Of a stretch of DNA of 64,000 bases, positions 105-58,720 are shown in pieces. Position numbers and translations under genes: made by a program. Numbering within the stretch: the first letter of the stretch is position 1; every line of letters starts with the position of its first letter. Source of the stretch: Alopecurus myosuroides (taxonomy: Eukaryota > Streptophyta > Magnoliopsida > Poales > Poaceae); contig CM054062.1 of NCBI GenBank assembly GCA_028641055.1, positions 141,154,682-141,218,681 of the forward strand, read 5' to 3'. The notes beneath the pieces are model-generated. The model had not been told where the DNA came from. It did not search any database and saw only the letters and a list, made by a program, of their open reading frames with translations.

Positions 105-929
105 TGATACGTCTAAACTGTATCTTCTTTTCCGAACACTTTTCTTATTGTTTTCCTCTAAACTTGTGAGTTTTGGATACCACTAACACGGCCTAACGTT
201 GTTTTCAGCAGAATTAACTTGGTGTCTCGTTTTTGTGCAGAAAAATCAACTTTCGGGAAATTGCCTAGAAAAGACCCCATTGAGCTGATATCACCAGAGG
301 ACCCCGGGAGCCAGAAGGACACGTGGAGGGGGGCTAGGAGGGGCCCAGACCACCCCCTAGGTTGCGCCTCCAGGTGGTGTGGGGGCCACCTCCACCCCCT
401 CGGGCTCCCCTTTCGACTACATATGCCCTATAAACCTAAAACACGAGGGGGTTCGTCATATTCCACAGAAACACAACAGAGTGCCGCCGCCAGCTCGAAA
501 CACATTTCCGGGATTAGAAGTTCCTTTTCGGGCGCCCTGCCAGGACGGGGATTCGAAGGAGATCACCGCCATCAACACCGCCACCTCTTCTCCATCAACC
601 ATCCATGATTTCCCCATCCATGTGTGAGTAAACACCGCTGTAGGCTGAGAGGAATGGAAGGGATTGGATGAGATCGATCATGTAATAATGCACGGTTGTT
701 AGGGCATAGTGCCTAGTATCCATTGTTAGTGTTTTCTACCATTGTTGCAACTTGTTATGCTTAATGCTTGTCACTAGGGCCCGAGTGCCATGATCTCAGA
801 TCTGAACATGTTATTGTTTCATGAGTATAATTATGTTTCTTGATCATATCTGCAAGTTGTTTACACATGTCATTGTTCGGAACCCGAGGCCCCAAAGTGA
901 TAGAAATTGGGACAGCCGGAGGGGATGGT

Positions 930-3900
930 TGTCGCACCCGGACTTCTAAAGGATACTCGCCGTTCCGTTGAACAGTAGTAGATTGGATTACGGGGCTTAC
1001 CGGCACCCGCGTCCTCTTACGAGTAGGCCAACACACGTATGTGTGACAACCAACCCCTATCTGTTCAGCGTCGACGTAAACTATCCCATAGAAATCAGGA
1101 TACTACCATTGACGTACTTCATACCATACACACATGGTACGTCAACGGTTTGTAACAGAATGATAGCACAACATATCACTAAGACACAAAAGATTGAAAT
1201 AAGTGGCAAATAGCTCTCACTAGAGCAGAGATAGCAAATACAATCATCCATAGGACACATGTCCCAACATAACATCATTACATCTCAGCGGAAGCATTCA
1301 AAGGGTCTGAGTACAGACAAATCCAAATAGGCTTAAGAAGCCGGGAATTAAAGAGAACGAGCCCATCCACGGTGTCTCGGATCCTGCCCGGGTCCGCTAC
1401 CTACTCGTCAGCAGCCTCGTCAAACTCCACGTAGTAGCCATCACTGGGATCCTCGTAGGCGTAGTCTGCGGAAACCACAGCCCCAAAGGGGTCAGTACAT
1501 AAACGTACTGGCAAGCAAGACTCACAGTTCACCAAAGTGTAGCCCGTCAACACCAAGCACAGATGCCTTGGGTTCAATGGAAGAAAAGGGATATAAAAGA
1601 TGCTGCAACTGGCTGCGCTAACCAACTACAGAGATTCTACCACTTCCGGCTAACAGAAAGAAGATAAGATATCGTATCGTAACCAACTACAACTAACCAC
1701 CAAACAAACCCATCCTGGATCTCGCCCCTTATCCAAAGAAGCAATCCGAGGATAACTCACACAGTTGGATTAATGAATAATGGATCAAGTTGTTGTGTCA
1801 ATAAGTCTATTACTAGTCAAGTTATCAATAGTTAGGTATAAGTTGTTCTGAGTACTTGTTAGCCAGTACTTTCACCAAGTTAACCATAACCGCGGAAAAC
1901 ACGGCTTCTCGAGAAGATTTATCCCTGCAGGGGTGCACCAATTTGGCCGTACACGTAAGAATAACCCGCCAGATGGGATGCCTCCCACCAAGCGGGGCAC
2001 TCAACACAACTCAACTCTTCTTCGCATCAAGCCCAAAGCACCTTGGGCGCACGGCTAATCGAGCCCCGAAGAAAGGGGACCCTCATAGCACTCTAAGAAC
2101 GTGTCCCCCTATATGCCGACTACAAAAGTTCTACCCTGCGCTGGGCTCGCAAAAACATGCATGTGGCAAATAGAAAACACGAACTAAATGAGGCGATTTG
2201 GACGAGATGCGAATCGAATCAAATTGAGGGGGGCGCCCATACACGCTTCCCACATGCGGATAGTGCGCTCATCATGGATCAGTAGACAAGACCCTTTTCC
2301 TATTAGGGTCGACACTAGCAGGCCTCAAAACCACACAGGGCCTCCTGCCGGTGCCTTATCAGCATATTATTATTAACAGGTTGATTGATTAACATCGAGC
2401 CTCCAGAACATAATAGAATATAGTAATCAGAAAGTAACGGGTAACAGACTCGAGCAAAACAAGCTAAGCATGCTAGTAAGACACTGGCTCAAACAATGGG
2501 GTGGTAGGAGTGGAGGTGAGGCAATATCAGGGTTAAGGGATTCATGTGATAGGTTCGAAACAGAAACAACTATACATAGGGCTAGCAAAATAGACAACGG
2601 AAAGTATCGGTAACCAATGTTGAAAGGAACATAGTGGTTCATGTGAGTGATAACTTGCCTGCAAACTCAGCAGCCTGGTACTGAGCTAGATCCTCAGAAG
2701 GGGTGTCGTAAGTATCGTCTGTCTCAACGTCGTCGTCTATCCGAGAAGAAGCAAACAGACAATGCAGAAATATAAACAATCAATATCATGGCATAGTGCA
2801 CAATCATGGGATGATGCATGTCAATTTAACTGATGCATCAAAATAAAATAGTTGACATGGGAAACAATACATGATTAAATGGACCCACATGAAACTTTGA
2901 GTTGCATATGAAAAGCCCATGAATTTTGGTTGAAACAATTGTTTTCCAATTAACCAATAGGTGAAAGTGGATTAGTATGATGCATGGATGAGGAAAACAA
3001 CAAAATAACAACAATAGAACCAATTGGAAATAAGGGTTACCAATTTAGAAATTTATTTATTAAATTAGGGAATTTTTTGGTTCCTTAAAGGGATTACACA
3101 AATAGTTGTTGTTTTCACCAATTTAAATTGTGCAAATTAAATAACAAAATTCATATTTGAAAAGAATACAAAATTTTAGTTGGATTACATGTTTCAAATA
3201 TTGAAAAAAGGAGTTAGGATGAATTTATTATGACTTAAACAAGGTTAAACAAATTTTAAATGAATTTAAAACAAGTTTGAAAATTATTTGAATTTTATTT
3301 GTTCTAAACATAAATTCAAACTCACATTTGAAAAGTTTATACTTTTCTAGTTTGAAAACATATTTTGCATGTTCAAAAATAATTTAATTTGAGCAAGTTA
3401 TGATTTTATCAAATTTAAATGATTTAAACAAGGTTTAAATTATTTAAGCAATTTTTATTATTCAAACCATGAAACAAAATTTATATTTAAATAGGTGGTT
3501 TGAAATAGCATGGAAAACATATTTTATTTGCGTTATTTGGATTTAGTATGAATTAGTTATGGATTTTATCAAATTACAAATGAATTGGTTGAATTCAAAT
3601 TTGAAATGCATTTGGAAAATTCAAAATAGAAAACAAATGTTACCAATAGGTAGATAATTTAATTTAGAGCAGTGCACATATTTTATTTTTATTATTTGAG
3701 TTTTTAAATTGAAAGTTATTTGCATTTCCAAATTAGGGACCAATCTGTTAATTTAAAAGGATTTAGATTTAAACAGAAAAGCTTGAAAACTTTTGTTACC
3801 GCACAGAGAGCTAGCCCAAGGCACTGCCAGATGGGCCCTGGGCCAGTGTGTGCTTGCGTGGCAACGCAGTGGCTGACAGGGGGGCCACCCTGTCAGTGCT

Positions 3901-21775: not shown

Positions 21776-23027
21776 ATGAAGAACCTTGTTGTCGGCGAGA
21801 TCGTCACCAACCCCGAAGGAGAGAAGATCGTCGACGATTCTGGCTGGGGGCCAGAGTCAGACTTGCTGGAAACCGGATCTCCCGTCATGATCGGCCGCAT
21901 CAACGTCTTCGTGGGTATGGTACGTACGTAGGGTTTGATTTCTGACAATAATGAATATGATTCTGTGTCAGGGGCCTCCACTTCCGTTCAGTCGGATGGT
22001 GAAGAGTCGATAGGACGGCAGAACCGGAGGAAGCGCCCACTGCGAAGAGGGAACAGCCGGAGGAGCCGGCATGGACCCCGCGTGGCCGGGTTAATGAAGA
22101 TGTCGATACCGAATCTATCCTGCATCTGCTCGAAGATCGGTATGAGGAGGATAGCTGCGAGGAAGAAGAATATGAATCTTCACCAGGCATTGCGCGCCGA
22201 GTCGCGGTCTACACAGCCCCTGCGATAAATCTAAACCAGGGTGATGTGACCTTAGCCGCGGCTGGTGCGGCGCAAGCACTGGCACAACAATAGACGCCGG
22301 TTAATGGAGACTCGGCCGGAGCCCGGGTCGATGGCGAGCAAACATCCGTCACCAGCGAAACAGGCGAAACTGCTCATCAGAGGAACATGTTCGGATTCAG
22401 GACGGACAGAACAGCCGGTGCGGGAACATCACACCCACCAAATCCGTCTCTATTCAGCAACAACCTGATCTTGGATCCCACAGTGTTAGCTACGGTGATA
22501 ACCTGGAGAACGCAACGGCCCGGGCCAGAGACCTGGATGTAGCCCGCCGAGCGCTGGAACAGCAAAGGAGAGATGTAGAGGCCGAGAAATTACAGATGGC
22601 CGCGCGTCAGCGTCAGTTGGATGAGTTAGAGGACCATATACAGGCACAAACGACTAGAGTATATAATCAGAGGCATCAGACGAGACTGCTAGCAACAGGC
22701 GGAGACCTACAGCCGGCCGCATTGTTTGTCACACCTCAAGACCAGCCAATCCCGATTTTGAACCAAGGAACCTGGTATACAGAAGCGACGCTTGGAGGAC
22801 AACCGGCGAACGTACCGACCGGGTCACATGTGCTACCCGTCGGGGTGCCTGGGGGCAACACTGTGCAGCCACCACCATCACGATTCCATACCCCACCGGG
22901 TCACTTCAATAACCCTATGGACAATGTGTACGCGCAACTTTAGCGCTCGACCGTATTCCACTGGGAGAATCACCTCAAGCGATAGAGACCCGGCGGGTTA
23001 TAGAGATGTTAGGCACTGCGGTGGCTC
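21776..23027 (+). pseudogene. gag 5' part of element H (broken by stops and by nested insertion)
   Basis: Starts MKNLVVGEIV at 21776, matching the start MENLVIGEIY of the inner element. Stop codons and frameshifts follow (for example at about 21930 and after 'SVQSDGEESIG'). The frame is cut at 23027 by the nested element; the target GGCTC lies inside the codons for VAQQA, and the gag resumes at 33009. Non-functional. Confidence 0.8.
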
Positions 23028-23505
23028 TGATGGGGGGATGCTAACCCGGTATGCCAAGATCTGAGGAATAACCCGGCCCAGAGACAGTGAGCAGGATACG
23101 GCTAGGGATAAAGATGTTTGTGGAGGCCCAAGCTCGTGGGCCTAGTGACCCGGATTGTGGGTGTTGTAAAGGAAAATTAGGGTTAGCACGCCGTGTCTGG
23201 GTAGGACCCGGGTGTGCCTTGTAAAGTAAGTTAGGGGGGGTACGGGTACTATATAAACCGACCCTCGGGTATAGATTGACACAGAGATTTGAGAACCTTA
23301 ACAATATCGAGTAGTATCGAGTATCCAGTGTAAACCCTAATCGAGTTATTGTATCGAGAATAGAGATCCGGCGACTTCGATTGCCGGCTGTCAGATCAAG
23401 TTGTATCATGTCTTCCTTTGAGCTAAACCCTCTCCCGAACACCTGTGTCGACTTGCCCCAAGATCAGTTACCCCTGGTAACATCTGCCGTGATTATCCCA
23501 CGACA
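23028..23505 (+). repeat. 5' LTR of element I
   Basis: TGATGGGGGGATGC to ATCCCACGACA. TATATAAA at 23250-23257 is the likely sense promoter TATA box. Confidence 0.95.
23250..23257 (+). promoter_or_regulatory. LTR TATA box of element I
   Basis: TATATAAA in the LTR, also present in the 3' copy near 32748. It drives genomic RNA toward gag. Confidence 0.6.
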
Positions 23506-23507
23506 GT

Positions 23508-23525
23508 TGGCGCCCACCGTGGGGC
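23508..23525 (+). other. Primer binding site, tRNA-Lys type (element I)
   Basis: TGGCGCCCACCGTGGGGC, identical to that of element H, two bases after the LTR. Confidence 0.87.
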
Positions 23526-23569
23526 CTGCGTCCAAAGGTGTCTACATCACGGGAGAAGCTCGGAAGGGC

Positions 23570-26500
23570 ATGGAGAATCTTGTCATCGGCGAGATCTACA
23601 TCGACCACGAAGGAGAAAAGGTGGTGGACGATTCCGGCTGGGGGCCGGAGTCGGATCACCTCGAAACCGGATCCGTCATAACAATCGGCCGGATCAACGT
23701 CTTCATCGTTATGGTATGTGCTTCCAATTCGGTCCCTGACAACGTTGGATCTGATTCTATGCCAGGAAAAGCCACGTCTATCCAATCAGATGATGAAGAA
23801 TCAACGGGAACGACATATCCAGCAGAAGAACCCATCGCGGAGTGGGAACAGCCGGAGGAGCCGGCATGGACCCCACGCGACCGGGTCCAAGGAGAAGATG
23901 ACACCGGGTCTATCCTGGATCTACTGGAAAACCGGTATGAGGAGAACGGTGAAGAGGAACAGCCTGAATTTACACCGGATATCGCGCGCCGAGTTGCAGT
24001 CTATGCAGCCCCCGCGGCTAACCAAGGAAACACAGCCGCGGCACCAGTCGGGGCAGTGGCCCAGCAACAGGGCGCGGTTAACGGAGACCCGGTCTTGACC
24101 CGGGTCGATGGAGAGTCAGCATCGGTCACCAGTCGCGCGGCAGATGAGGAGCAACACGCCAACATGTTCGGGTTTCAAGCCAATCGGACACCAGGGGCGG
24201 GTCCCTCGAATCCGCGTCACCCGGCCCTGTTCGATAATAATTTGATCTTGGATCCTACAGTCCTCGCCACTGTTATCACCCCAGAAAATGCGGCAGAGCG
24301 TGTTAGAGATCTGCACGTGGATCGTCGTGCATTGGAACAGCAAAGAAGGCAAGTGGAAGCAGATAGGCAGGGGATGGCCACCCGGCGGCGCGAGCTAGAC
24401 GCGTTGGAAACCCGGCTTCGAGAGGAAACGTCCAGGATACATCAAAGGCACCACACCAGGTTGCCAGCAACGGGCGGGGTTATTAATCCGGCTAATTTGT
24501 TCATCACGCCTCAGGATCAACCGATACCAGTGGTGAACCAGGGAACCGCACCCCAACAGACAACAGCAGCGACACGTCCGGCGAATGAACGGACCGGGTT
24601 ACCCCCACCGCAAACTAGAGTCACAACCGGCAACGATCTACTGCCGCCGCCACCGTCACGATTCCGCACGCCAGCCGGCCACTACAACAATCCTATGGAC
24701 AACGTATATGCGGCGACACTCGCATTGAATCAAATACCTGTGGGAGAGTCGCCCCATGCAGAGAAGACTCGGCAAGCCATCGAGCTGTTGCACACTGCGG
24801 TGGCGCAGCAAGCCAATTACCCGGATCACAGAAGCGGAATGCACGGGACGCCATATGTCAGCCAGCAGCAAGGGAATTTACAAACGAGTTCGGCACGGCG
24901 GAGGGAAGAGCAGCAGCAAATGCCGCCTCCTCCCCGCGCTCAGGCAGTATCAGCAGCACAGGCCGTCGTGGACAGTTCTAGGGCTCGGAGGGCCGCGGCC
25001 GGGTCTGCAGCGCATGGGCCTCCCGCAGCACAGCGCCCAGACGCGCCCCCCGCGGCATCACACGTTTCCAGGGCAAGGCCGGCTTCAATCATTCTTGCGG
25101 GGCCCAAGTGTCTCTCGGACAATATTAGAGCTGAACCTTACCCGGAAAAGTTCAAAGAGCCAGGGAAGGTAGTGAATTATGAGCCAACCATGGATCCCGA
25201 AACGTGGCTAAGCAGTTACGAGATGGCAATGTCAATCCGCAACGCGTCCGAGAACCTCCAAGCCAAATTCATGTATCTGATGATGTCTGAAGGAGCAGCA
25301 AAATTGTGGTTCACCAATCTACCAGAGGGATCGATCAAGTCTTGGGAGGAATTGAAGACCGCGTTTATCAAGCACTTTCACGGAACCTGCAGGAAATTAT
25401 TCACCATCGATGATCTAGAGCGATGCGTCCAAAAGAAGGGAGAATCGGCGCGCAGTTGGGTGCGCCGGGTTATGGAGATACTTCACTCATCTACAGACAT
25501 CCAGCCCAAGGATGCGCTACAAGCCATGGCAAAAACATGCAAGTATATACCTTTAGTGAAAAAGTTAACTCGCATGAAGTCCAGTCGAAATGCGTCAGAA
25601 GTCACAATGGGAGAATTGATGGATGCGTGCAACAAACACGCTGCGACAGATACCACAGAAGAAGAAGCTGATGACAAGAAGACAAAAGCAAACACAAGCG
25701 GTAATGGAAGAACCGGCAGCGGAACAGCGTCAGGAAACAATGGAAGTAGTCAGAACAAGCGCCCCTTCGAAGGAGGCTCCGAGTTTGTCGCCAATACAGA
25801 AGCCGGGTCTTCAAGACCCAGAGCAGAAGGAAATTTCAATACTGGGAATCACAACGGAGGAAACTACCAAGGGCCGCCCCGGCCGAGTAATAGTTGGGAC
25901 ATCTTCAGAATGGCGTGCCCAAAACACAGCAGGAACGGCAGGCCGGCTAACCACTCCTTGGAGCAGTGCGCCGACTTGCAAAGATGGAAAAACGAAGAAG
26001 TAAACAGGGCTATGCGAGGTACAGGTCGAGGAGGAGGGCCAGGTCCGGGTGGAAACCCTGGCAATGGACCACCCCCAGCCGGAAACCCGGCAGCTGGAAA
26101 CCAGGGCAACAACCAAGGGGGAGCTGGAGGCTTCCAGGCTAACCCCAAACAATTGGGTCAATATCATGTGCATACCACAGGAGGATCTAACAAGGACAAA
26201 AAGATACTGAAGCAAGAAGTCAACTCAGTTTCGTTAGCCGTCCCGAGATACTTGAGATGGTCAGAACAGGAGGTAACATGGAGCAGAAGGGATCACCCAG
26301 AAAGAGTGGAACACCCAGGAGTCTTGGCACTAGTAGTCGCACCGCAAGTTAATGGGTACGAGCTAAAGAAGGTTTTAATGGATGGTGGAAGCAGCATCAA
26401 TATACTGTATTGGGAAACCTTCCTACGCATGGGTCTCAAGGAATCTCAACTGCAAAAAAGCTCAACAGTTTTTCATGGAATAGTGTCGGGTCATTCAGCA

Positions 26501-27091
26501 TGCCCCGAGGGAAAAATCGCACTAGAGGTAGCTTTCGGAGAATCAAAGGATAACTATCGAATTGAGTGGCTCACCTTTGAGGTAGTGAAGTTACGCAGCC
26601 CCTATCACGCGCTGTTTGGAAGGCCGGCTTATGCCAAATTCATGGCTAGGCCGTGTTATGTATATCTACAGCTAAAAATCCCGGGTCCCAAGAAGACTAT
26701 AACCATACACGGAAATCGAGACATAGCCGCTGAATGCGACGAAGGAGATGCAGCAATGGCCGAGCAAGCTTGCAGAAAGGAAGAACTCAAGCACTATCGG
26801 TCTCAAGCAGACCTGGAGGACAGAACTACATCAAAGAAGCCAAGTACTGAAGGCGAAAAAGCAAAGTCCAAGGTCACGCAAGATGCTAAAATGGTGGCCT
26901 TAATCGAAGTTGACTCTCCCAAGCAGTCTGCTGTAAAGGAAGAAGTTACACGGCCGCCAACAACCAGCAAAGTCATGGAGACACCCCACCCGGGTTGGCT
27001 GGCAAACCCGGTACTCATCAGGAAAAAGTTCAACTTATGGAGGATGTGCATTGGTCAAGCCGGATCAGGACCAGTGCTTACAAAGAACTGA
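23570..27091 (+). CDS. Gag-protease polyprotein of element I, 1,173 aa, with RT stub
   Basis: Open from before the LTR end; the first ATG after the primer site is 23570 (MENLVIGEIY), the same start as in element H. The N-terminal half is long, acidic and Gln/Ala/Pro-rich. The Gag core is near residues 525-690 (GAAKLWFTNLPEGSIKSWEE, then GESARSWVRRVMEIL). A zinc-knuckle-like C-X2-H-X8-H-X4-C uses Cys783, His786, His795, Cys800 instead of CCHC. The aspartic protease active site is D938-G-G (VLMDGGSSINILY). It ends with a short RT fragment (WLANPVLI...WRMCI) fused to a few unrelated residues and a stop. Relative to element H, about 75 codons before the stub and all RT-RNase H-integrase are gone. 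No internal stop, unlike the damaged homologue in H. Confidence 0.88.
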   Translation: MENLVIGEIYIDHEGEKVVDDSGWGPESDHLETGSVITIGRINVFIVMVCASNSVPDNVGSDSMPGKATSIQSDDEESTGTTYPAEEPIAEWEQPEEPAWTPRDRVQGEDDTGSILDLLENRYEENGEEEQPEFTPDIARRVAVYAAPAANQGNTAAAPVGAVAQQQGAVNGDPVLTRVDGESASVTSRAADEEQHANMFGFQANRTPGAGPSNPRHPALFDNNLILDPTVLATVITPENAAERVRDLHVDRRALEQQRRQVEADRQGMATRRRELDALETRLREETSRIHQRHHTRLPATGGVINPANLFITPQDQPIPVVNQGTAPQQTTAATRPANERTGLPPPQTRVTTGNDLLPPPPSRFRTPAGHYNNPMDNVYAATLALNQIPVGESPHAEKTRQAIELLHTAVAQQANYPDHRSGMHGTPYVSQQQGNLQTSSARRREEQQQMPPPPRAQAVSAAQAVVDSSRARRAAAGSAAHGPPAAQRPDAPPAASHVSRARPASIILAGPKCLSDNIRAEPYPEKFKEPGKVVNYEPTMDPETWLSSYEMAMSIRNASENLQAKFMYLMMSEGAAKLWFTNLPEGSIKSWEELKTAFIKHFHGTCRKLFTIDDLERCVQKKGESARSWVRRVMEILHSSTDIQPKDALQAMAKTCKYIPLVKKLTRMKSSRNASEVTMGELMDACNKHAATDTTEEEADDKKTKANTSGNGRTGSGTASGNNGSSQNKRPFEGGSEFVANTEAGSSRPRAEGNFNTGNHNGGNYQGPPRPSNSWDIFRMACPKHSRNGRPANHSLEQCADLQRWKNEEVNRAMRGTGRGGGPGPGGNPGNGPPPAGNPAAGNQGNNQGGAGGFQANPKQLGQYHVHTTGGSNKDKKILKQEVNSVSLAVPRYLRWSEQEVTWSRRDHPERVEHPGVLALVVAPQVNGYELKKVLMDGGSSINILYWETFLRMGLKESQLQKSSTVFHGIVSGHSACPEGKIALEVAFGESKDNYRIEWLTFEVVKLRSPYHALFGRPAYAKFMARPCYVYLQLKIPGPKKTITIHGNRDIAAECDEGDAAMAEQACRKEELKHYRSQADLEDRTTSKKPSTEGEKAKSKVTQDAKMVALIEVDSPKQSAVKEEVTRPPTTSKVMETPHPGWLANPVLIRKKFNLWRMCIGQAGSGPVLTKN

Positions 27092-28149
27092 GTAATGTAA
27101 CGGGCGGCAGGTTTCAGACGCGCTCTTTTCCTACCCAGGGTACCTAAGGGGACTGGAAGGTTTTTAACGAGGCGGCCTGCTGACCCAAAATTTCTGGTAT
27201 CAATAAAGAGATGGTTATCAAGTCCTATGTCTTTTCGCCTTTATCACAAGTAAGTAGTATCTATGCGACATCGATAATTCAGTATCATCAAAAGCATCGA
27301 TTGCATGTAGGTCTTGGGGGTTGGTTGCTCAGGTAACCAACCACTAACCCGAATGACCCGGCATAGATAGCTATAAGTTATAAGGGCCGATTCCTCGCAA
27401 ACGAGCACGGCTGCAATCTTATGACTGGGCAAAGAAGCCAATTTTTCTTGACTTATCTTACTTAAGCTTGATGTGACTCGCACTAAAGTGGCATGATTCG
27501 TTCGCTTACGATTACAATCAGCCATGGAGCCCAATGGGACTTGCCTGACACTGTTCTCGTATGGATGTAACAACATGGTATCCACGCGAAAGCCGGCTTA
27601 TAGTATAAGATAGTCAAAAGGGTCATCCAAACCACAAGTTTATGCAGAGTACAAGGCTGATAAGCCGGAAACTCAGTGATTATCAAGCATAACTTCAGTA
27701 TTTACATGAGATGGTTTTAGGGTTTTGCCTTGGTAGGGAATGATTTGTCCTCTGAGAAAGGCCACACCCTCATGACTCGTCCTTTGGGTCATGGGGACTG
27801 GGGACTTCGTAACAGAAACAAACCACTTTGATACCAAGGTTCAAAACGGCCCTATCATCCGAGTCTTGGGAACTTCAAGAGAATTTCACTTATCAAAGCC
27901 CCTGGTCTCGAAAAAAACGAGTCTTATGAAGGGAGCTAAAAAGAGAGATGGGTATCAAGAACAAGTTCAGAAGAACAGCAAAAAGTATGATTATCAAAAG
28001 GCTAGGAAAGCCACGAAAATACGTCACCAAATAGAAGTATATTACAAGCTTTTGCATCGGTATCAGAAGTGCACAGGCGCACCATTAACAGAATAAAATA
28101 GCTCAAACAAAAAGATCCCATGTGACTAAGGTATTATGACATCCTTACT
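27092..28149. other. Non-coding spacer of element I between gag-protease and antisense gene
   Basis: Colinear with 38405-39404 of element H; both begin with a block containing 'CAGGTTTCAGACGC', 'GGGTACCTAAGGGGACTGGA' and 'ATCAATAAAGAGATGGTTA'. The AATAAA there (plus strand, about 27200) could be a sense poly(A) signal. No coding region recognised. Confidence 0.6.
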
Positions 28150-31100
28150 CTACTCGGCCTCCTGAGCGCGATCTTCCGGGTCTTGCTCCTGGACCTTCTT
28201 CTTAGCTTTTTTGGCAGAGCCACCCGGACTCATCGCGCCAGGGTGGATAGGAGGAAGGACGGACGGTGTAGAGGCGGACGGCCCTGATTTTAAGTCGGCC
28301 TCCCTCTTCGAAGTTGCCTCCTTCTTCTTAGCTGAGTAATCAGCCCACTTCTCCAAGAGGTCAACGGGCGGGGGTGCTTCCTCTGTGATAATCTTGTCAT
28401 CAGCGTCATACGCAGCCATTAGTGTATTAAGGTTCAAGCTATCGGCTAGAGTGGTGGCAGAGGGGCGCACTGCCGACTGAATGGCCTTGAAATCCTTAGG
28501 CGTAAATTTGGCGCCATCCGCCTTGAACTCAGGAAACCCGGAGATTATCTTCGCCGGGTCAAGCTTCGGAAAGTAGGCTTTGGCCAAGGTCAAAGCCCGC
28601 ACTATACCAGTACGGCAGGACGAACGCTTCCAGAGTTCAATCCATCCGGGTACAGTGGAGCAGGCTTGGACAAGGTTCTCTTCACCCGGATAGGCTTCCG
28701 TGGGCCAATTAATGGCATTCAATATAAATTTGGTGCCGGCAAAGAAAGTCCGGAGCACAGTCTTCAGGGTCCTAACCTTGACAATAGCATCTTCCTCTGG
28801 AGCTGCAAGGTTCGCACCTATAGTGGAAACAGAAGCAAGAACGTATCAGTAGCAGCCGGGTATGAAATTAGTCGGCAGGCAAAAATTAGTCGGCAGGCAA
28901 AACTTAGCCGGCAGGCAAACACTTACTAAGTAAGATCTGATAAGTATCGGAGACTTGATCCGATAACTTCTTCAAATCGGCCTGAGCGGCGAGGCACTTC
29001 TCCTTGTATTTGGAGACATCCTTCTTCAAGGTTTTCATATTATCCTCAAGGATTTCTCGGCGTTTTATCTCGGCAAGAAGGAGCTGTTCAGTCTTCAGCA
29101 AGGTTTCATCAGACCGAGTTACATGCGCCTGTAAGTGTAAAAGGGTGCAAGAACCAGCTGAGTGTTATGGCAAGAAAAATATGGTGAGAAGTACCAAGCA
29201 TAACTTTTGCAAGTTATACTCGGAACTTGGGGACTAGATAGGGAATATAAGATAACAAGCGCTCTTACCTGGTGCTCTGCAGCCATGCGCTCTAAAGTCT
29301 CGCTCTCCGAAGCCTTCATGGTGAGAAGCTTGTCCATCAATTGTTCGAAAGTATCTTTATTCGTGTCAGAGGACCCGGGTCCTTGGAATTTCCTAGAAGA
29401 GGTTTTCTTCTTAGAAGGAGGTGGAACCCGGGTCATTTGCACGTTGGAATCCGACACTCCTTCTGCACCTAAGGCGGTGGTCTTTCTCTTGCTAGCATGA
29501 GAAGCAATTGGATATTCGGTTTCCTGCTGGTCCGGTTTAGTCGGCGATGTTTGTTCTTCATCGCCAGACGCGGTTGCAGTTTTATCAGCTGGGTTCCCCT
29601 TACCCGGGCCCTTATCTTCCGAATCCTCTTGATCGCTGACAGCGACCGTGGCCCTGTAGATGTTATCACAAAGCAGCTAAATATGCAGTCAGGAAAAGAT
29701 GACGAAGTATCGGAAAGTATCTGGAAGGGGATTTTACCCGGCATTCACCGCAAAGTCACAAGGAAATCCATCGTCAGACCCGGGGGAGGCTGGAAAATGT
29801 CAAGTTAAATATTATGCGAGAATGCTTTGAGGAAACCGTGCTAACCAAGAAGAGATAGAGCAAGTACCAGCTTGCCGAGTGGGGAGCGGTGAAGAACCCG
29901 GGTTAAGGGCGTCGTTACCCGGGTGATTTCGAGTCGACCTGCGCTTAGGCGTGGGCGACCCCTTCAAGATTGACCAGTGGAATAACGTCAAGAAAGGTTC
30001 AAGAATATCATTACGGTAATATAAAGTGAATGTGTGAAGGGGGATGAAACCTTGGAGGTGGCTCCTTGAGCTTTTCTTTTAGATCCGGCTTTGGTTGCCG
30101 GCTCCGGTTCTTCCTCATCACTGGCAGATTCTACCTTGCCGTCTGAATCTTCTTCCTCGTCATCTTCTTGTTCTGAATGCCATCAAGGTTACGGTTGGAA
30201 ATAAAGGGGTTACGGTGAGTTCAAACGAGTCAAGTAAAACCCAGAGAGTACCTTCGTCAGAGTGAACGGCTTCTTGCTCCTCTGGACCTTCGGAGCTAGG
30301 GGGGGTATTGGTGTTCCAAAAGTCGTCATCATCCTGAAAGGCGTTAAAGTACGGGTTATCAGTTGCATCAAGTGGAAAGAGCGAAAGTAAAGGCGTCAGA
30401 GTCGGGTTTTTACCTGGGGGGCCGGGTTTTCAAGTGTGAAGGGCTCTAACCCGGATATGTTCCGGATTACCTCGAGCTTCTCCGTAAGAAAACCCTTGAT
30501 GGTCTTGAGAGTGTCGCCGACTGCGAAGATGTTGTCAGAGTATCGTAGTGGATCAGAAGGTTCCCCAGAATACTCGCACATCAGCTTTGTGCGGATGGAG
30601 TTGGGTTGAATTCTGAAGTCGACCCAGGTCTTCACTAGGTTGAGCCCAATGAGGCCCTGGGCTCTAAGAGTGGCGAGTTTGTATAGCAGAGGTTGGATTG
30701 CCTCCCTATCTGAGTCAGGGGCAAAGGCACTAAATTTATCAGAGATATCAAGAAGACCATCAGAATAACCCGGCAGTTTCTTTTGGCCGGATGGGGAAGT
30801 GTCCTGGCAGTAGAAATAAGAAAGCTGCCAGTGTTTGACATGAGAATTAAGGGTGAGGGATGGCATCGGAGAGTTCTTGCGGCGCTGGATCGAAACCCCG
30901 CCGCAAGTGAGAAGCGCCCCATCACCGCTTTCGCGGCATGGTTTGCATTGATAAAGCTCGATAAAAAGAGCTAGGTTTGGTGGAGTGCATAAATAGGATT
31001 CAGAAAGGACAATAAAGTGGGTAATATTTAGCACGGAATTGGGCCCGATGTCGAAGACGCGAAGTCCATAGTGACTAAGAATGTCACGGAAAAAAGGATG

Positions 31101-31343
31101 ACCGGGTGGGCGAAAACCCCGGGTCACATGTTCCACGAAGCAGATTACCTCGTCTTTTGTAGGGGTGGGCTGGGTCTCCTTACCCGGCACCCTCCATTGG
31201 ATATCCTCCTGAGGAGGGAGAACTCCCAGCTCCACTAGCTCCTCCAACTTGGCCTTCGTGACCATCGACCGCCCCCAGTTGGCGGAAATGGTGTTGGTGG
31301 CTTTAGTCTTGGTTGGGGTTTTCACCTGTTTCTTGGGAGCCAT
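28150..31343 (-). CDS. Antisense gene of element I, eight coding exons, predicted 844 aa
   Basis: Minus-strand exons: 30414-31343, 30252-30333, 30051-30172, 29868-29961, 29738-29789, 29269-29653, 28927-29128, 28150-28817; all seven introns are GT-AG, 78-140 bp, and the phases add up with no stop. Residues 65-136 resemble the 'putative gypsy type transposon' domain (PF04195), with GFRPPGHPFFRDILSHYGL. Residues 311-378 are acidic then basic (GSKRKA), 379-555 are Ser/Lys-rich with SKRK and SKKK clusters, and 556-623 are a heptad-like coiled coil. The C-terminal part ends in a Lys-rich tail. The start MAPKKQ follows a spliced 5'UTR. Function unknown; antisense ORFs of this kind are known in Tat elements. 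The damaged homologue is at 39405-42760. Confidence 0.85.
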
Positions 31344-31352
31344 GTGGTTGAC

Positions 31353-31864
31353 CTGCAAGGCATCAAATAAGAAGAAGATTAAGACATGGAAGTTATGAAA
31401 CGGTCAGGTATCAGCCGGATGGTATCGAGGTATGGCAGGAGATCCGGGTGTTAGCCCGTAGAGTCAAGCTCGGAAGTTCCGGGTATCGCGTATTATGGAG
31501 AAATTTATGGGGTCTAAATGGTAAAGAAGCTTTTTGAAAATGATGGGCAGTGGCTTAAGCGCCAAATGTGAATAAAGGGGATTAAAAAGAAGCAGTCCAG
31601 CCGAGTGATTGATGCAGGGGCGGAAATCTTGGGCAGTACGAGCCTAGATTGGAAGTTTTATTTTCAAATTCGTGGCGAAGGTAATGATTGTGGGAAGTAG
31701 GCGAGTTGGTTGGAGTATGCGCTTTATCCTTTGTGCGAACTAAAAGAGACTATGGGTAGCCTAATCCGGTCTAGCCAAGAAATCTGAGGCGGACGGATCT
31801 AGATCTAATCTGAGGAAAAAAATCAGAGGTTGCGAGGGGAAGTTGATGAACGCAAAAGGCTTAC
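31353..31864 (-). other. 5'UTR intron of the antisense gene (element I)
   Basis: Donor CCG|GTAAGCC at 31864 and acceptor CCTTGCAG at 31353, nine bases before the ATG. Element H has the same donor (CCG|GTAAGCC at 42881) before its own start. This implies a non-coding first exon from about 32105 to 31865. Confidence 0.65.
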
Positions 31865-32131
31865 CGGAGGAGATCCGAGGGAGGCCTTGCGGAGGCAGAT
31901 GGCGCAGGCCTGGTGTCCTTTCGCGGTTCTTGGTGGGCCGGATGAGAATTCGCCGGCGGATCTCGGCGGTGGCGCGGAGCGACCGGTGGCGGAGCGTAGC
32001 CTTCGGGCAATGGGTTCCGGTGACGTGCGTGGAAGGTCCGTGGTGGCGCTCAGGAAGAAAGAGAGCTCAAGAGGAGAAAGGAATGGAGTGGGGGAAATGA
32101 GCCGTTAGGGTTCGAGTCATTCCTAAGGAGC

Positions 32132-32140
32132 TTTTTTATA
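32132..32140 (-). promoter_or_regulatory. Antisense promoter TATA box of element I
   Basis: Minus strand ACTATAAAAAAG, about 270 bp upstream of the 5'UTR donor and about 390 bp inside the 3' LTR boundary. It lies at the position corresponding to TATAAATATA at 43221-43230 in element H. Confidence 0.6.
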
Positions 32141-32525
32141 GTACGACTGGATAAGCCCGGTTCGGTGAGTGGAGGCCGGGAATTGTGGGGGTAAAACGGC
32201 TATTAATTTAAAGTTCTTGCGAGATATGCGCCCAGTATTGAGTAAAGCATCCGGATAAAGAAAGAAGGGGATTCGCTCCGCGATGATGGGATTAACTGTC
32301 AAGCATAGGATCTTGGCGTTGCTACTATGATTTGGATCCAGAAGTTTTGAACCAAGGTGTTTGGAGGGAAAAACCTGAATTATCGCATGGCCACCAAGGA
32401 GCAAGGCCTAGCTGGATGTTGAAACATCTTAACCCGGTTTCCATATGCCTGTGTGATTGATATCTTTTCAGGAATAGCAAGCGCTTCAAGGAGATCCGTG
32501 AAGCCCAGGCTATTCTGGGGACTAC

Positions 32526-33003
32526 TGATGGGGGGATGCTAACCCGGTATGCCAAGATCCGAGGAATAACCCGGCCCAGAGACAGTGAGCAGGATACGGC
32601 TAGGGATAAAGATGTTTGTGGAGGCCCAAGCTCGTGGGCCTAGTGACCCGGATTGTGGGTGTTGTAAAGGAAAATTAGGGTTAGCACGCCGTGTCTGGGT
32701 AGGACCCGGGTGTGCCTTGTAAAGTAAGTTAGGGGGGGTACGGGTACTATATAAACCGACCCTCGGGTATAGATTGACACAGAGATTTGAGAACCTTAAC
32801 AATATCGAGTAGTATCGAGTATCCAGTGTAAACCCTAATCGAGTTATTGTATCGAGAATAGAGATCCGGTGACTTCGATTGCCGGCTGTCAGATCAAGTT
32901 GTATCATGTCTTCCTTTGAGCTAAACCCTCTCCCGAACACCTGTGTCGACTTGCCCCAAGATCAGTTACCCCTGGTAACATCTGCCGTGATTATCCCACG
33001 ACA
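32526..33003 (+). repeat. 3' LTR of element I
   Basis: 478 bp. It is preceded by GCTATTCTGGGGACTAC, which is also found before the 3' LTR of element H and is the likely plus-strand primer (polypurine) region. Confidence 0.95.
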
Positions 33004-33008
33004 GGCTC

Positions 33009-34539: not shown

Positions 34540-35926
34540 CGGGTGTGCTAGCTTTGGTGGTGGCGTCGCAGGTCAATGGCTATGAGCTAAAGAAGGTTCT
34601 GATGGATGGCGGGAGTAGCATCAATATCCTATATTGGGAGACCTTTCTACGTATGGGGCTCAGGAGTCTCAGCTACAGAAAAGCTCCACAGTTTTCCATG
34701 GAATTGTACCAGGACACTCGGCCTGCCCTGAGGGAAAGATAACACTAGAGGTTGCTTTTGGAGAATCCAAGGACAATTACAGAGTAGAGTGGCTCACATT
34801 CGAGGTGGTGAAGTTGCGTAGTCCTTATCATGCAATGTTCGGAAGGCAGGCTTACGCCAAATTCATGGCAAGGCCGTGTTACGTGTACTTACAGCTGAAG
34901 ATCCCGAGTCCTAAACGAACCATCACTATACATGGGAACAGGGCTGTGGCAGCAGAGTGTGATGAGGGAGATGCGGCACTTGCAGAACAAGCTTGTGCAA
35001 AGGAGGAACTCAGGTATTACAGGTCTCAGGTAGACCCGGAAGATCGAACCGCTTTGAAGAAACCAAATACTGATGATAAGAGAGCTAAGTTTAAGGCAGT
35101 CCAAGACACGAAGATGGTGGCTTTCATTGAGGGCGACTCTTCTAAGCAGTTTGCCATAGGTTCAAACCTGGATAACAAGGAGGAAGGCGCGCTTATCAAG
35201 TTTATCCGCGAGAATCAGGATATTTTTGCTTGGACACCTAGCGACATGCCGGGTATCCCGACCGAACTTGCTGAACATAGCTTACACGTTGATCCCAAGT
35301 CCCGGCCAGTGAAGCAGGGTTTGAGGAAAATGAATGAGGAAAGAAGAAAAGCTATAGGAGCAGAGGTAGCTCGGCTCTTGGCGGTCGGCTTTATCATGGA
35401 GGTTTTCCACCCCCGGTGGTTGGCAAGCCTGGTTTTAGTGTTGAAAAAGAATAACGAGTGGAGAATGTGCATAGATTACATGAGCCTCAACAAGCATTGC
35501 CCAAAAGATCCGTTTTCCCTTCCAAGGATAGACCAGATCATAGATGTAGTGGCAGGAAGTGACCTGCTATGTTTTCTGGATGCCTATTCCGGGTATCATC
35601 AGATAAAGCTCAAAGAGGAGGATTGGGAGAAGACGTCATTCATAACCCCCTTTGGAGCCTTTTGTTACAAAACCATGACCTTTGGATTTAAAAATGCTGA
35701 CGCAACATATCATCGATGCATTCAGAAGTGTTTCGAGGATCAGATTGGACGCAATGTCCATGTTTATGTCGATGACGTGGTGATTAAAACAAGGAGCGCA
35801 GAAACATTCATTGATGACCTTAAAGAGACATTAAAAAAATCTGAGGAGATATCAAATGAAGCTCAACCCAACAAAGTGTGTGTTCGGAGTTCCTGCGGGG
35901 AAATTACTCGGTTTCATCGTTTCTGA
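34540..35926 (+). pseudogene. Protease and reverse transcriptase of element H
   Basis: The protease active site VLMDGGSS is at about 34595, in a frame that shifts near 34690 into the main frame. That frame then carries the rest of the protease, a linker and the RT to 35926. RT features: RMCIDYMSLNKHCPKDPFS, FLDAYSGYHQI and catalytic YVDD at 35764-35775, then a frameshift near 35870. Reverse transcriptase would copy element RNA in the particle. The frameshifts make this copy non-functional, though the RT core itself looks complete. Confidence 0.88.
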
Positions 35927-38404: not shown

Positions 38405-39404
38405 CATAGACTCAGTTTGCAAATTGTATTACACGATGTAACATGCAGCAGGTTTCAGACGCACTCTTTTCCTATCCAGGGTACCTAAGGGGACTGGAGG
38501 ATTTTTAATGAGGCGGCCTGCTGACCTAACCTTTTTACATCAATAAAGAGATGGTTAAATCATGATATTCATTATGTTCCTTGAATTTTGTCAATTTCTT
38601 GCATATTTTTCTGTAGTTAAATCATGCTATTTAAGCTATCTGTAAGCCGGTAGAGCAGAAAGCCTACTGTTGCATAGTACATATATTTAGGTCTTGGGGG
38701 CTGATTGCTTGAATAGCACAGTTGTACACTAAGACCCGGCCGTGATGCCAATCGGTTGTGGGGACTGATTACTTGTAATAAGTACAGTTACAATCTCATA
38801 ACCCGGACAATAGAGCCAAATGTTTTCTTGACCTCTTTCGTTTAAGCTTGATGTAACTCGCACCAAAATGGCGTGTTTGCTAACCTATAAATCCAATCAG
38901 TCATGATGCCCATGGGGACTTGTCTGACCCTGTTTTTACTAGAGTTATAGCAACATTGAAAATCCATGCGAAAACCGGCTTATAACCAGAAGGGTCAAAA
39001 GGGCCATCTAAACCATAAGTTACGCAGAGCAAAGGCAACAGCCGGAAGCTCATTGCATATTGCGCGTAACTTCAAAATGTATAAGTATATAACAGCCAAA
39101 ATTTGGGACTTGGGGACTTGAGAAACAAAAATTCTCAAGCCAAGATTCCTAAGACCTAGAATCCGGGTCTTGGGGACTTGTGAGAAATTCATCACAATCT
39201 TAAGGTCAAGACTCAGCATCTTTCTCACAAAGCATATAATAAATAAAGCTGCGCCAAAATGAGTTTGTAACGTGCATATTAAAGCGATAACCATAAGGGT
39301 CATCGAAACCACATGAGTTTAAGTGTGTTACAAACCAGAGGAATAGTATCAAAAGTGCACATGCGCACTATCAAATAACAAGTGTAAAAGGCATGTTACA
39401 ATGC
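38405..39404. other. Non-coding spacer of element H
   Basis: Colinear with 27092-28149 of element I. AATAAA near 38543. No coding region seen. Confidence 0.6.
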
Positions 39405-42400
39405 CTATTGGCCGAATGATTGTTTGCTGATAAAAATGAGAACATTACTCGGCTGCCGTAGCCGAGTCACCATGATTGGTCCTGGCGGCCGGGTCTTCGG
39501 TATTCTCCTCCGTTGCCTTCTCTGTCTCAATGTCTGGGTCAACCGCGGAATCAGCGCGAGCTGGAGGAGGAACAACCGGAGTCGATTAAGTTGGCGCAGA
39601 ACCGGCCTCGACTTTTTCTTGGCGACCTCCTCCTTGTACCGAGACAATATATCAAAAGGAGCAGGGAATTCGGAGGGCACCGGCTTATCCTCAGCATCAT
39701 ATGGGGGGGTAAGCTTGTTTACATCGAGATTTTCTGCAATCAAGCTGGCCGAGTGACGGATCTGGGCATTGATGGCCTTGAGGTCTTTTCCCGTGAACTT
39801 AGAACCATCAGTATTAAACTTGGGAAACCCGTTCACAAGCATTGCTGGCTCAATTTTGGGGTAATAGGCTTTAGCCAGTGCAAGGCCGCGTATCACCCCA
39901 ACCCGGCATGCTGAGCGCTTCCAGATATCAATCCAGGCAGGGATTGTCTAGTATGCCTCAAGCATTTGTGTTACACCGGCGTAGTCACCGGTCCACTTCA
40001 CAGCTTCGAGAGTCCATTTTGTCCCTGCCGAAAATTGTCGGATGACAGTCTTGAGTATTCTCAGCTTTTTGAGATCATCATGTTCCCCAGCAACTTCACC
40101 CGGACCTGCAGTAAAAAAAAAGGAGTAAGATAGTAAGATCCGGGTAAAAAATCTTCTAGAACGGGAAATTCGAGTAATACAAAGCGATAGTCGGAAACTT
40201 AGATGTGCCTTACCTATGATGGAGTTATATGTCTCGGAAATGAAAGTTGAGAGTTTCTTCACAAGCTCCTCAGCGGCGTGGAGTCTCTTCTTATACTTCT
40301 TGCACTGTTTGGAGAGCTCCTTGACTTTGGCCTCCAGGTCTTCACGGAGTTTTGTTTCAGCTTGCAGGAGTTCATTGGTCTTTGCCAACAGTACGTCAGT
40401 CCGGATAACATAAGCCTGAAAAAGACAAAGAAACATCAGTCGGCAATGAGCTCAAAAGCTATATTTGCAAGTACCAAGTGACTGTGGACAGTTCACTTGG
40501 AACTTGGGGACTAGGATGTTCTGAAGTTGCATAAGAAAGACTACATAGTTGCAAAGTACAGAATGACTGTGGACAGTTCATTCGGAACTTGGGGACTAGG
40601 ACGAGTATATAAATAGTACTAGGTAAACTAACCTGGTGCTCAGCTGCCAGAGACTCGACAATCTCCTCTTCAGTTGCCTTCAGGGAGCGATACTCCTTCA
40701 GCAACTTTTCAAACTCATGGCCACTGAGAGTCAGCCTGAAAGAGCTGGCATTCTGATCAGCCGGTGGTGGGGTTGCCTGTTATTTCCCCGCGTCGACTCT
40801 GGTTGTTGCGGTATTTGGAGCAGGAGTCGCCCTTTGCGTCCCAAGATATTCAACATCGGGATCAGCCGACTGACGCGCGAGAGGAGGAGACTCGGTCCTT
40901 GGGTCGGCCGTGTTAGCCGGCTCTTGCTCTTCAGTAGGTGGAGGATTAGCGGCGCTCTCCGGGTCTTCCGCCGTTGGATCATCGACATGGGTCTCAACTG
41001 GTCGCTGAGTGTGACCTTAGCCCTGAAGGAAGGAAAAAAGAAAGTGTTAGTGGTTTATAAAAGTAAAACCTGCAAAGTATAGGGGTATTCTTAAGCAAGG
41101 TACGAAAATTACCCGGTATTCACGACGAAGTCACTGGGGAGATCGTTGCTAGACAAGGAGGACACTGATAGAGAATTGAAAAGTGATACTCGGAGTTTTC
41201 CGGCTAATGGATGATTCGGGGATGGATATTTTCGAGGAGCGCAAACAGGATAAGTTGAAGGAGTACCGGCTCGGCGAGGGGGCGATTGAAGGGGAAGCTC
41301 GGGATTAAGGGGATCGTCACCCGGTGAAGACCGGGTTGCCCGTCGTTTAGCTGGAGGAGATGCGGTTTTCTGTGATAATGCAACAGTTAGTCATTTGTTA
41401 GATCTTGTGCATATTAGCATATGAATCCGGGTCTGAGGTTATGGAAGAATAGGATACCTTGAAGGTGACCCCCTTGGCCTTCCTCTTTTTTCCTAGCTCG
41501 GCCTCAGGCTCCGCTTCGCTCTCTTCAGACTCGGAATCGACCTTGTCAGCCGGAGCTGGTGATTGTGGTGTATTGTCAGGAATAAATGTGGGAGGAGAAC
41601 CTTGATCTAGTAAGTTGACAAAGTACTTGTTCAGTAACTCGGAATCACCTTCTTCGTTGTCACTCGGCTCTTCTTCTTCCGAGTTTTCAGAGGGGGGAGG
41701 GGTGACAATCTTCCACCATTCTTCAGATTCCTGGGTAAAAAGCAGCAGAGATAAAAGTTAGTATATGCGAGCTAGAAAAATCAATCGGTACAAAAGGGAT
41801 TATCCGGCTCTTACTGGTGGAGCCGGGTTTGAGCGAGAGAAGGGGGAGAGTCCAGAAATGCTCTTGATAGCATCCATCTTCTCAGCCAAGAAATTCTTCA
41901 TAGCCTTGTTGACGTCTGCGGCCGGGTATGACTTCGCCGAGTATCGGAGAGAGTCAGTCAGATGGCCCGAGTATTCGCAGAGCAGCTTTGGGCGAATGCT
42001 GTTGGGCTGGATCCTACAACTGATCCAAGTCTTGATCAAGTTTAACCCAGACAGACCGTGGGATGCTAAGACGGCTAATTTATGAAGGAGGGGCTGGATG
42101 GTTTGTCTGCCGGCCTCCGGGGCAAAGAAGCTTAAATTATCACTGAGGGAAAGAGTTTCAGTGGAGAAACCCAGCAGAGGCTTCTCGCCAGGTGAAGAAG
42201 TGTCCTTGCAATAGAAGAAAGTCTTTTGCTAATGCTTCACGTGAGAGTGAAGGTTGATAGTCGGCATTAGGGATATCTTGCGCCTTTGGATGGCCACACC
42301 TCCACAGACAAGGAGGGGACCATCCGTAGTCTCGCGACAAGGTTTGCATTGGAAAAGCTCGAGAAATAGAGGAAGATTGGGAGCTATGCAAAGATAAGAT

Positions 42401-42760
42401 TCACAAAGGACGATAATGTGGCAAATGTTCAAAATCGAGTTTGGGCCTATGTTGAAAAGTCGGAGTTTATAGTGATGGAGGACCTCACGGAAAAAAGGAT
42501 GACCCGGGGGGCGGAAACCCCGGATCACATGCTCAAGGAAAACTACGACTTCACCTGCTCCGGGTGAAGGCCGGCTCTCCTCTTCGGGCACCCGCCATGC
42601 GATCTCCGACTGAGGGGGGAGGACCCCCAGACTCGGCCAGCTCTTCCAGCTTGGCTAGAGTGACAGTCGACTTCGCCCAGTTGGCGGTGATAGTTTGACC
42701 CGGCTTTTGCTTCAAAGCCGCGGCCTTGTCCTTGGACTTGGGAGCGGTTTTGGGTGCCAT
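39405..42760 (-). pseudogene. Antisense gene of element H, decayed homologue
   Basis: Minus strand. It starts MAPKTAPKSK at 42760, has a frameshift near 42630, then the same domain as in element I (GFRPPGHPFFREVLHHYKL), and a TAG where element I has Trp (HVKH*QK at about 42230). It continues at 42039-41800 and through acidic, Lys-rich and coiled-coil exons (about 41735-41458, 41020-40640, 40418-40218), ending in a frameshifted C-terminal exon (about 40110-39405) with a further stop near 39950. Exon order matches element I, but the second and third coding exons of I appear as one longer exon here. Non-functional. Confidence 0.8.
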
Positions 42761-58090: not shown

Positions 58091-58720
58091 TTGCAGGACT
58101 ATGCTTCCGGTGGGACTAAATGGATTCTCTATATTGGGTGCACTAATCATATGACCGGAAGCAAAGAACTAGTGACGGAGTTGCGACCAAATGACATCCA
58201 AGCAACCGTCACTTATGGGGACTCATCCAAGTCTAAGGTATCCGGGTTCGGCAAGGTTGTGGTGGCTCCCGATATAACTATCGTGAACGTCATGCTTGTC
58301 GAATCCCTTGGTTACAATTTACTTTTCGTCCGCTCTCTTGGAAAGATGGGTTTTTCCGTCTTTTTCGATGGTGATATTGTGGTCCTTTTGAGGAGCAAGA
58401 CTCTTGACGTCGCTCACGTGGGACATGTTGAAAATGAGTTGTTTGTGGTGGACTTTTCGAAGTCCACCAACTCTCAAGCAATGTGTCTTTTCGGGAAGGC
58501 GGACTTGGGATGGTTGTGGCATCGCCGCCTATCCCATGTCAACATGAGAACTTTGCAAAGTCTTCACAAAGGTGGCCTTATTGTTGGACTAAAAGAAAAT
58601 GTTTCCTTTTCAAAGGATCGCGTTTGTAGGTCGTGCGTTGAAGGGAAGATGCATGACATCATGCACAAGGCCAAGATTATTATCTCATCAAAGAGGATCT
58701 TGGAGCTCCTCCATGTTGAT
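58091..58720 (+). pseudogene. Copia protease and pre-integrase zinc segment (cut, active site lost)
   Basis: Residues WILYIGCTNHMTG (58121 onward) align with the Copia protease site, normally WxLDSGCTxHMT; here Asp-Ser is replaced by Tyr-Ile, so the catalytic Asp is gone. Then follows the GAG-pre-integrase zinc segment: WHRRLSHVNMRTLQSLHK and VCRSCVEGKM. The frame ends at ELLHVD (58720), where element F starts. Confidence 0.85.

Follow-up and report, generated by a model that had tools for sequence, protein, structure and literature searches.

Selection on an apparently spliced antisense gene in a pol-less family of probable Retand-type retrotransposons in Alopecurus myosuroides

Why should a retrotransposon without reverse transcriptase (RT) and integrase of its own keep, on its opposite strand, an uninterrupted gene of eight exons? 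The question is raised by element I, which lies in a window of 64,000 nt of Alopecurus myosuroides (contig CM054062.1; all positions are window coordinates; Table 1). The element is young: its two 478-bp LTRs show two differences which, at a substitution rate of 1.3e-8, date the insertion to ~0.16 My ago, and because the insertion is so recent, the intactness of this one copy says little alone. Read by eye, the gag-protease frame ends in a short RT stub followed by a stop, and a domain scan of that long sense frame alone found no RT domain. Element I is nested within an older related element (21118-44260, TSD ATCCT, LTRs 97.3% alike), in which RT is present (RVT_1, ORF 34634-35926) and which carries a homologous antisense gene. 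Direct repeats of ~2.7 kb, 88% alike, at 926-3586 and 58717-61396 may be the LTRs of an old element that surrounds both of these.

Our preferred reading, to which we assign a probability of about one half, is that this is a TRP28 (PF04195) antisense accessory gene of Retand-type Ty3/gypsy elements, carried here by a pol-less derivative that would borrow RT and integrase, and that it encodes a nuclear protein serving mostly its own element.

Table 1. Features of element I and of the enclosing element, in window coordinates
Feature	Position	Strand	Remark
TSD GGCTC	23023..23027	.	flanks element I; second copy 33004-33008
5' LTR, element I	23028..23505	+	478 bp
gag-protease ORF	23381..27091	+	mechanical start inside LTR; gag domain
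pol-deletion junction stretch	27040..27180	+	contains the 31-base core
Exon 8	28150..28817	-	conserved C-terminal region, Lys-rich end, stop codon
Exon 7	28927..29128	-	possible coiled coil
Exon 6	29269..29653	-	linker carrying basic runs
Exon 5	29738..29789	-	52 nt
Exon 4	29868..29961	-	least supported exon
Exon 3	30051..30172	-	acidic, then basic
Exon 2	30252..30333	-	82 nt; slipping C7 run
Exon 1	30414..31343	-	PF04195 domain; 310-aa unit
Leader intron, 5' UTR	31353..31864	-	GTAAGCC...TTGCAG, acceptor nine bases before ATG
Promoter-like stretch	32105..32140	-	TATAAA from 32140, AACCCTAA from 32112
3' LTR, element I	32526..33003	+	478 bp
Homologous antisense gene, enclosing element	39445..42760	-	broken by stops and frameshifts

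The antisense gene and its predicted protein

The eight-exon, stop-free model of 844 aa put forward in the original prediction was reproduced exactly: the minus-strand exons between 28150 and 31343 are joined by GT-AG introns in consistent phase and end in a single terminal stop. To that model we add a leader intron and a TATA-type promoter motif. The leader donor, TCCG/GTAAGCC, is identical in the inner and outer elements; the TATA box and the AACCCTAA stretch, which may be the promoter of the antisense gene, have counterparts in the outer element (TATAAA from 43230, AAACCCTA from 43209).

A profile search places PF04195 in exon 1 (E 2.6e-20; 72.9 bits against a curated cut-off of 26.2; profile positions 1-68 of 69), where a PF04195-like domain had been proposed, and the acidic and basic linkers and the Lys-rich tail, also proposed, are all present in the predicted protein; inspection of the sequence reveals NLS-like basic runs in the linkers. 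Structure prediction gave a confident fold for the exon-1 domain (pLDDT 91), and a pLDDT of 52 for exon 8. The Pfam name would suggest a DNA-binding transposase, and the search for a nuclease or DNA-binding fold of known structure gave the exon-1 model no match in PDB or BFVD at E<=0.001. A domain with a confident model and no solved match is a good structural target.

Two repeats were seen in the introns. An 18-base unit occurs three times at 28865-28919, within intron 7. The 16-base motif CTAGTCCCCAAGTTCC has three exact occurrences, all on the minus strand and all in intron 6: one in the inner gene (29222-29237) and two in the outer (40499-40514 and 40584-40599). A fourth match (39105-39120) has two mismatches, where 0.04 matches with two mismatches or fewer would be expected. 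Because its sense strand shares GGGGACTA with the stretch directly before the 3' LTR, this motif might be an internal polypurine-like tract.

Chains of several hundred amino acids are cheap by chance. With any GT-AG chain allowed (introns of 70-160 nt, at most seven), the minus strand reached 890 aa, while 100 dinucleotide shuffles under identical rules averaged 404 aa, with a maximum of 623; the real strand beat all of them. Under strict splice-site rules the real strand yields at most 429 aa: introns 2, 3 and 5 do not pass, the acceptor being at fault in introns 2 and 5, and both donor (GTTTCA) and acceptor (TTGAAG) in intron 3; all three retain GT and AG in other copies. Exon 4 and intron 3 are the weakest part of the model. 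The low cost of such chains means that proof has to come from comparison with other copies. Among these and the outer element, splice sites are conserved while introns diverge, and selection in other copies follows the predicted phase. The idea that the exons form an open chain by accident could appeal to the length of the shuffled chains and to the three of seven introns that break the strict rule; it is refuted by the conserved splice sites and by phase-specific dN/dS (0.15 versus about 1.7, below), and we give it next to no credence.

The broken gene of the enclosing element has most of the inner model's splice sites in corresponding places and agrees with it in the length of exons 2 (82/82), 5 (52/52) and 7 (202/202) and, modulo three, of exons 3 and 4; exons 1, 6 and 8 are out of step through indels. 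For outer exons 3 and 5, these lengths depend on one acceptor chosen among several candidates: three for exon 3, two of them in phase, and two for exon 5, where a reading of 36 nt was rejected as out of phase in favour of 52 nt, from an acceptor lying 16 nt upstream.

Annotated homologs bear on the first splice junction. An Alopecurus aequalis protein (P0001, from a partial gene model without the PF04195 core and exons 4-6) and a Triticum aestivum one (P0003) both join NPAP to an FW-containing stretch at the exon 1/2 junction. Among the 23 homologs listed, exon 1 ends in NPAP-x-V in four (P0004, P0019, P0022 and P0037) and in NRAP-x-V in one (P0024), and most of the others end elsewhere. The x-V pattern is what reading on into the GT donor would give, and it supports the donor rather than transcription. 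In its exon lengths, splice sites and phase of selection the antisense gene behaves as a real spliced coding gene.

Copies of the pol-less family and selection on the antisense protein

The 31-base deletion junction occurs exactly at 175 places in the 3.57-Gb genome (0 for the reversed control), and the 141-base junction stretch is spanned at 99-100% by all 40 scored places, which were taken from 2227 first-look candidates and include the window. Several copies sharing one pol deletion is the mark of a non-autonomous LTR family, and the comparison indicates that the element, having lost RT, RNase H and integrase, has itself multiplied. Since the exact junction recurs at 175 places, pol must have been lost before the family spread. 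The original prediction had left open whether the gene's preservation beside lost replication genes reflects a role for the element or a very recent loss; the shared junction leads us to reject the latter, whereas the former gains support from the purifying selection described below.

The antisense gene was read in 20 of the 39 places other than the window. In one (L047) a truncation has removed the 5' part of the gene; the remaining 19 retain the ATG, the stop codon, the GT and AG of the leader intron and the coding splice dinucleotides, the one exception being a GC donor in L041. Copies free of any stop or frameshift number five of the 20 (L039, L044, L046, L051 and L055), plus the window. 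Divergence from the window is 0.6-2.7% in 18 close copies, and in 10 of these the C7 run of exon 2 (30299) has lost one or two bases (C6 in nine, C5 in one); L042, L048 and L058, which have such losses, cluster in a tree drawn without support values. In the exons downstream of the run, the ratio of nonsynonymous to synonymous change is 0.174 in slipped copies versus 0.225 in the others. The later exons of slipped copies therefore give no sign of relaxed selection, and the loss of C looks recent, recurrent through replication slippage, or an assembly error.

Comparison of the window with L055, the diverged copy (86.7% alike), gave Ka 0.064, Ks 0.418 and dN/dS 0.153 in the predicted phase, with a ratio of 0.069 for exon 1 alone; the other two phases of the minus strand gave 1.66-1.67 and the sense-strand phases 0.51-1.20, while the trimmed introns diverged by 0.34. 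Exon 4 is the exception, with a ratio of 0.84 and codon-position differences of 8/8/7, that is, without third-position excess. Between the inner and outer genes Ka is 0.42 and the ratio 0.17 (0.171), which is only rough because Ks is near saturation; differences at the three codon positions number 300/215/483 over 797 codons, and global alignments of the introns were too gappy for identity values.

The same selection is apparent among the window and the 18 close copies, counted without the truncated L047 and the diverged L055. Variants shared by at least two copies comprise 28 nonsynonymous, 48 synonymous and 0 stop changes, where non-coding columns predict 93, 46 and 3, for a dN/dS-like ratio of 0.29; singletons comprise 77, 93 and 6, against 182, 80 and 9 expected. 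In the junction region (30 loci, the window being L009; L018, L024 and L027 were dropped before counting), shared variants in the window and 26 copies gave 0.164 for gag-protease (40 nonsynonymous, 118 synonymous) and 0.323 for the part of exon 8 covered (8 and 12; P 0.011, the P values for variant counts ignoring shared ancestry), and singletons gave 0.298 and 0.245, respectively. Synonymous variants in gag-protease exceed the non-coding reference about fourfold (118 versus 30), and for this reason only its ratio is usable. Between the inner and outer elements, gag-protease has a dN/dS of 0.053, with Ks near saturation. Gag thus looks more constrained than the antisense gene when shared variants are counted and when the outer element is the reference, though not on singletons.

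The comparison of the two genes that had been called for stands at 0.29 for the antisense gene and 0.16 for gag on shared variants. Taken together, the counts indicate that the antisense protein is under purifying selection within the pol-less family, as is gag-protease. Points that count against our reading are the small number of copies free of stops and frameshifts (five of the 20 fetched), the frequent losses in the C run of exon 2, the missing codon-position signal of exon 4 and the mosaic structure of some copies, described below.

Codon-level selection also bears on the suggestion that the antisense RNA matters rather than the protein, through control by double-stranded RNA or interference with Pol II. 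Antisense transcription has been reported for Grande and Retand, and a role of double-stranded RNA has been raised, in the sections available of a review (PMC7264820). In the predicted phase, however, change falls mostly on third positions and the amino acids are preserved; phase-specific dN/dS largely refutes RNA as the sole function, and we regard this explanation as improbable.

Exchange of alleles and the upkeep of the gene

L055 is about 98-99.5% alike to the window from 27040 to about 27640; beyond ~27640, L055 and L047 are 84-88% alike to the window in the stretches compared, and they are 99.6% alike to each other (27500-30056). Identity changes sharply near 27640 in both, a shared junction half (about 99% alike to the window) being followed by a diverged antisense allele. 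The gag-protease part of these two places (read as L018 and L027) is 95% alike to the window. The pattern indicates that the antisense gene has undergone allelic exchange and that some copies are mosaic. Such exchange makes it less certain that selection acted entirely within the pol-less family; part of it may have acted in autonomous relatives.

This consideration leads to the main rival of our reading, in which gene and protein are the same but the protein acts in trans, and a good copy is kept by frequent recombination with autonomous Retand relatives, where selection would take place. Mosaic copies with their sharp change near 27640, the association of a single deletion junction with two antisense alleles and the commonness of frameshifted copies all fit this view. 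Set against it, the 18 close copies, despite differing so little from the window, still show a reduced ratio of nonsynonymous to synonymous variants and no shared stop. We regard upkeep by recombination as a serious possibility, though one that falls well short of probable.

On the preferred reading, that of a protein serving its own element, RNA polymerase II would read the antisense gene from its own internal promoter and host machinery would splice the transcript. The resulting protein, globular at its N terminus, with acidic and basic linkers bearing NLS-like runs and a helical C-terminal part, would enter the nucleus and, like Gag, would have the nucleic acid or particles of its own element as its main target. 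RT and integrase would be supplied to the pol-less derivative by other elements; pol, being borrowable, could be lost, while Gag and the antisense protein, which could not be supplied from outside, would be kept. The backward orientation of the gene would follow from its introns: introns in the sense direction would leave the genomic RNA by splicing and so be missing from the reverse-transcribed copy, whereas those on the antisense strand, not seen when genomic RNA is spliced, would be carried through retrotransposition. We propose tentatively, at rather less than even odds, that the antisense gene encodes a protein of unseen fold which a Retand element cannot borrow and which serves its own element as Gag does, so that a derivative stripped of RT, RNase H and integrase would still keep it under selection, and that antisense placement is what lets a host-spliced gene of eight exons pass through RNA copying.

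A multiplied pol-less derivative that keeps gag-protease and the antisense gene under selection amounts to a natural deletion experiment, one that sets borrowable functions apart from those an element must supply itself. The gene shows how a retroelement can own introns, and the model supplies exact splice junctions, which may explain the fragments found in ORF surveys.

Relation to known antisense genes of plant retrotransposons

A mark of Retand elements, according to the sections available of a recent survey (PMC11963269), is an antisense TRP28 (Transposase_28, PF04195) gene located between pol and the 3' LTR, and element I carries such an ORF in that position. Its LTRs and its region of about 5.4 kb between pol and 3' LTR (27095-32525) fall within the Retand ranges given there (315-1194 bp and 2.9-6.6 kb). 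The same text places antisense TRP28 ORFs in 97% of recently active Retand clusters and suggests a regulatory role. An earlier survey, in the part available, found the PF04195 domain in 23% of Retand elements (PMC6317226). In extrachromosomal circular DNA of blackgrass, PF04195 tops the domain lists in two tables, with counts of 416 and 361 (PMC10606437).

Another possible origin is capture of a host gene by transduplication. Introns and a promoter motif of its own do give it the look of a host gene. The diverged enclosing element, however, has the gene at the equivalent place and in the same orientation, most of the named homologs found are labelled gypsy-type transposase, and the available text of PMC11963269 reports no TRP28 similarity beyond transposable elements. 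We reject capture, which we consider very unlikely.

The TRP28 ORFs of that survey (Vicient 2025, PMC11963269) share with the gene of element I the PF04195 domain, the antisense orientation, the position, and LTR and internal sizes in range. They were obtained with ORF Finder from elements chosen, unlike element I, by an intact RT, as the available sections describe, and a family without RT would therefore not enter; apart from the reference list, the text available nowhere uses intron, splic- or exon. Retand clusters 2 and 3b come from Alopecurus myosuroides itself; in them, in the same sections, gag, protease and TRP28 are present and RNase H and integrase absent; they keep RT, the selection criterion, and have LTRs of 564-577 bp, where those of element I measure 478 bp. 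In the titles, abstracts and passages that it covered, our literature search recognized no paper on a spliced antisense gene of this kind, with the possible exception of Gomez-Orte 2013; genes of this type are established, but neither the splicing nor the upkeep in an element without enzymes appears to have been described.

In maize Grande, gene23 (Gomez-Orte 2013, as presented in the parts available of the review PMC7264820) is likewise antisense and downstream of pol, has its own promoter and yields a nuclear product; those parts describe no loss of pol for Grande, whereas element I is pol-less. The antisense ORFs of rice RIRE2, Wallabi and Gran3 and of Silene Retand, whose ORF4 contains PF04195, are alike in position and orientation by the description there, and the review asks for attention to antisense and spliced transcripts. 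Ogre elements likewise have an intron in a plant gypsy element; as the available part of PMC6317226 describes it, the Ogre intron lies between gag-prot and RT, in the sense direction, and is partially spliced, whereas the introns of element I are antisense to the genomic RNA.
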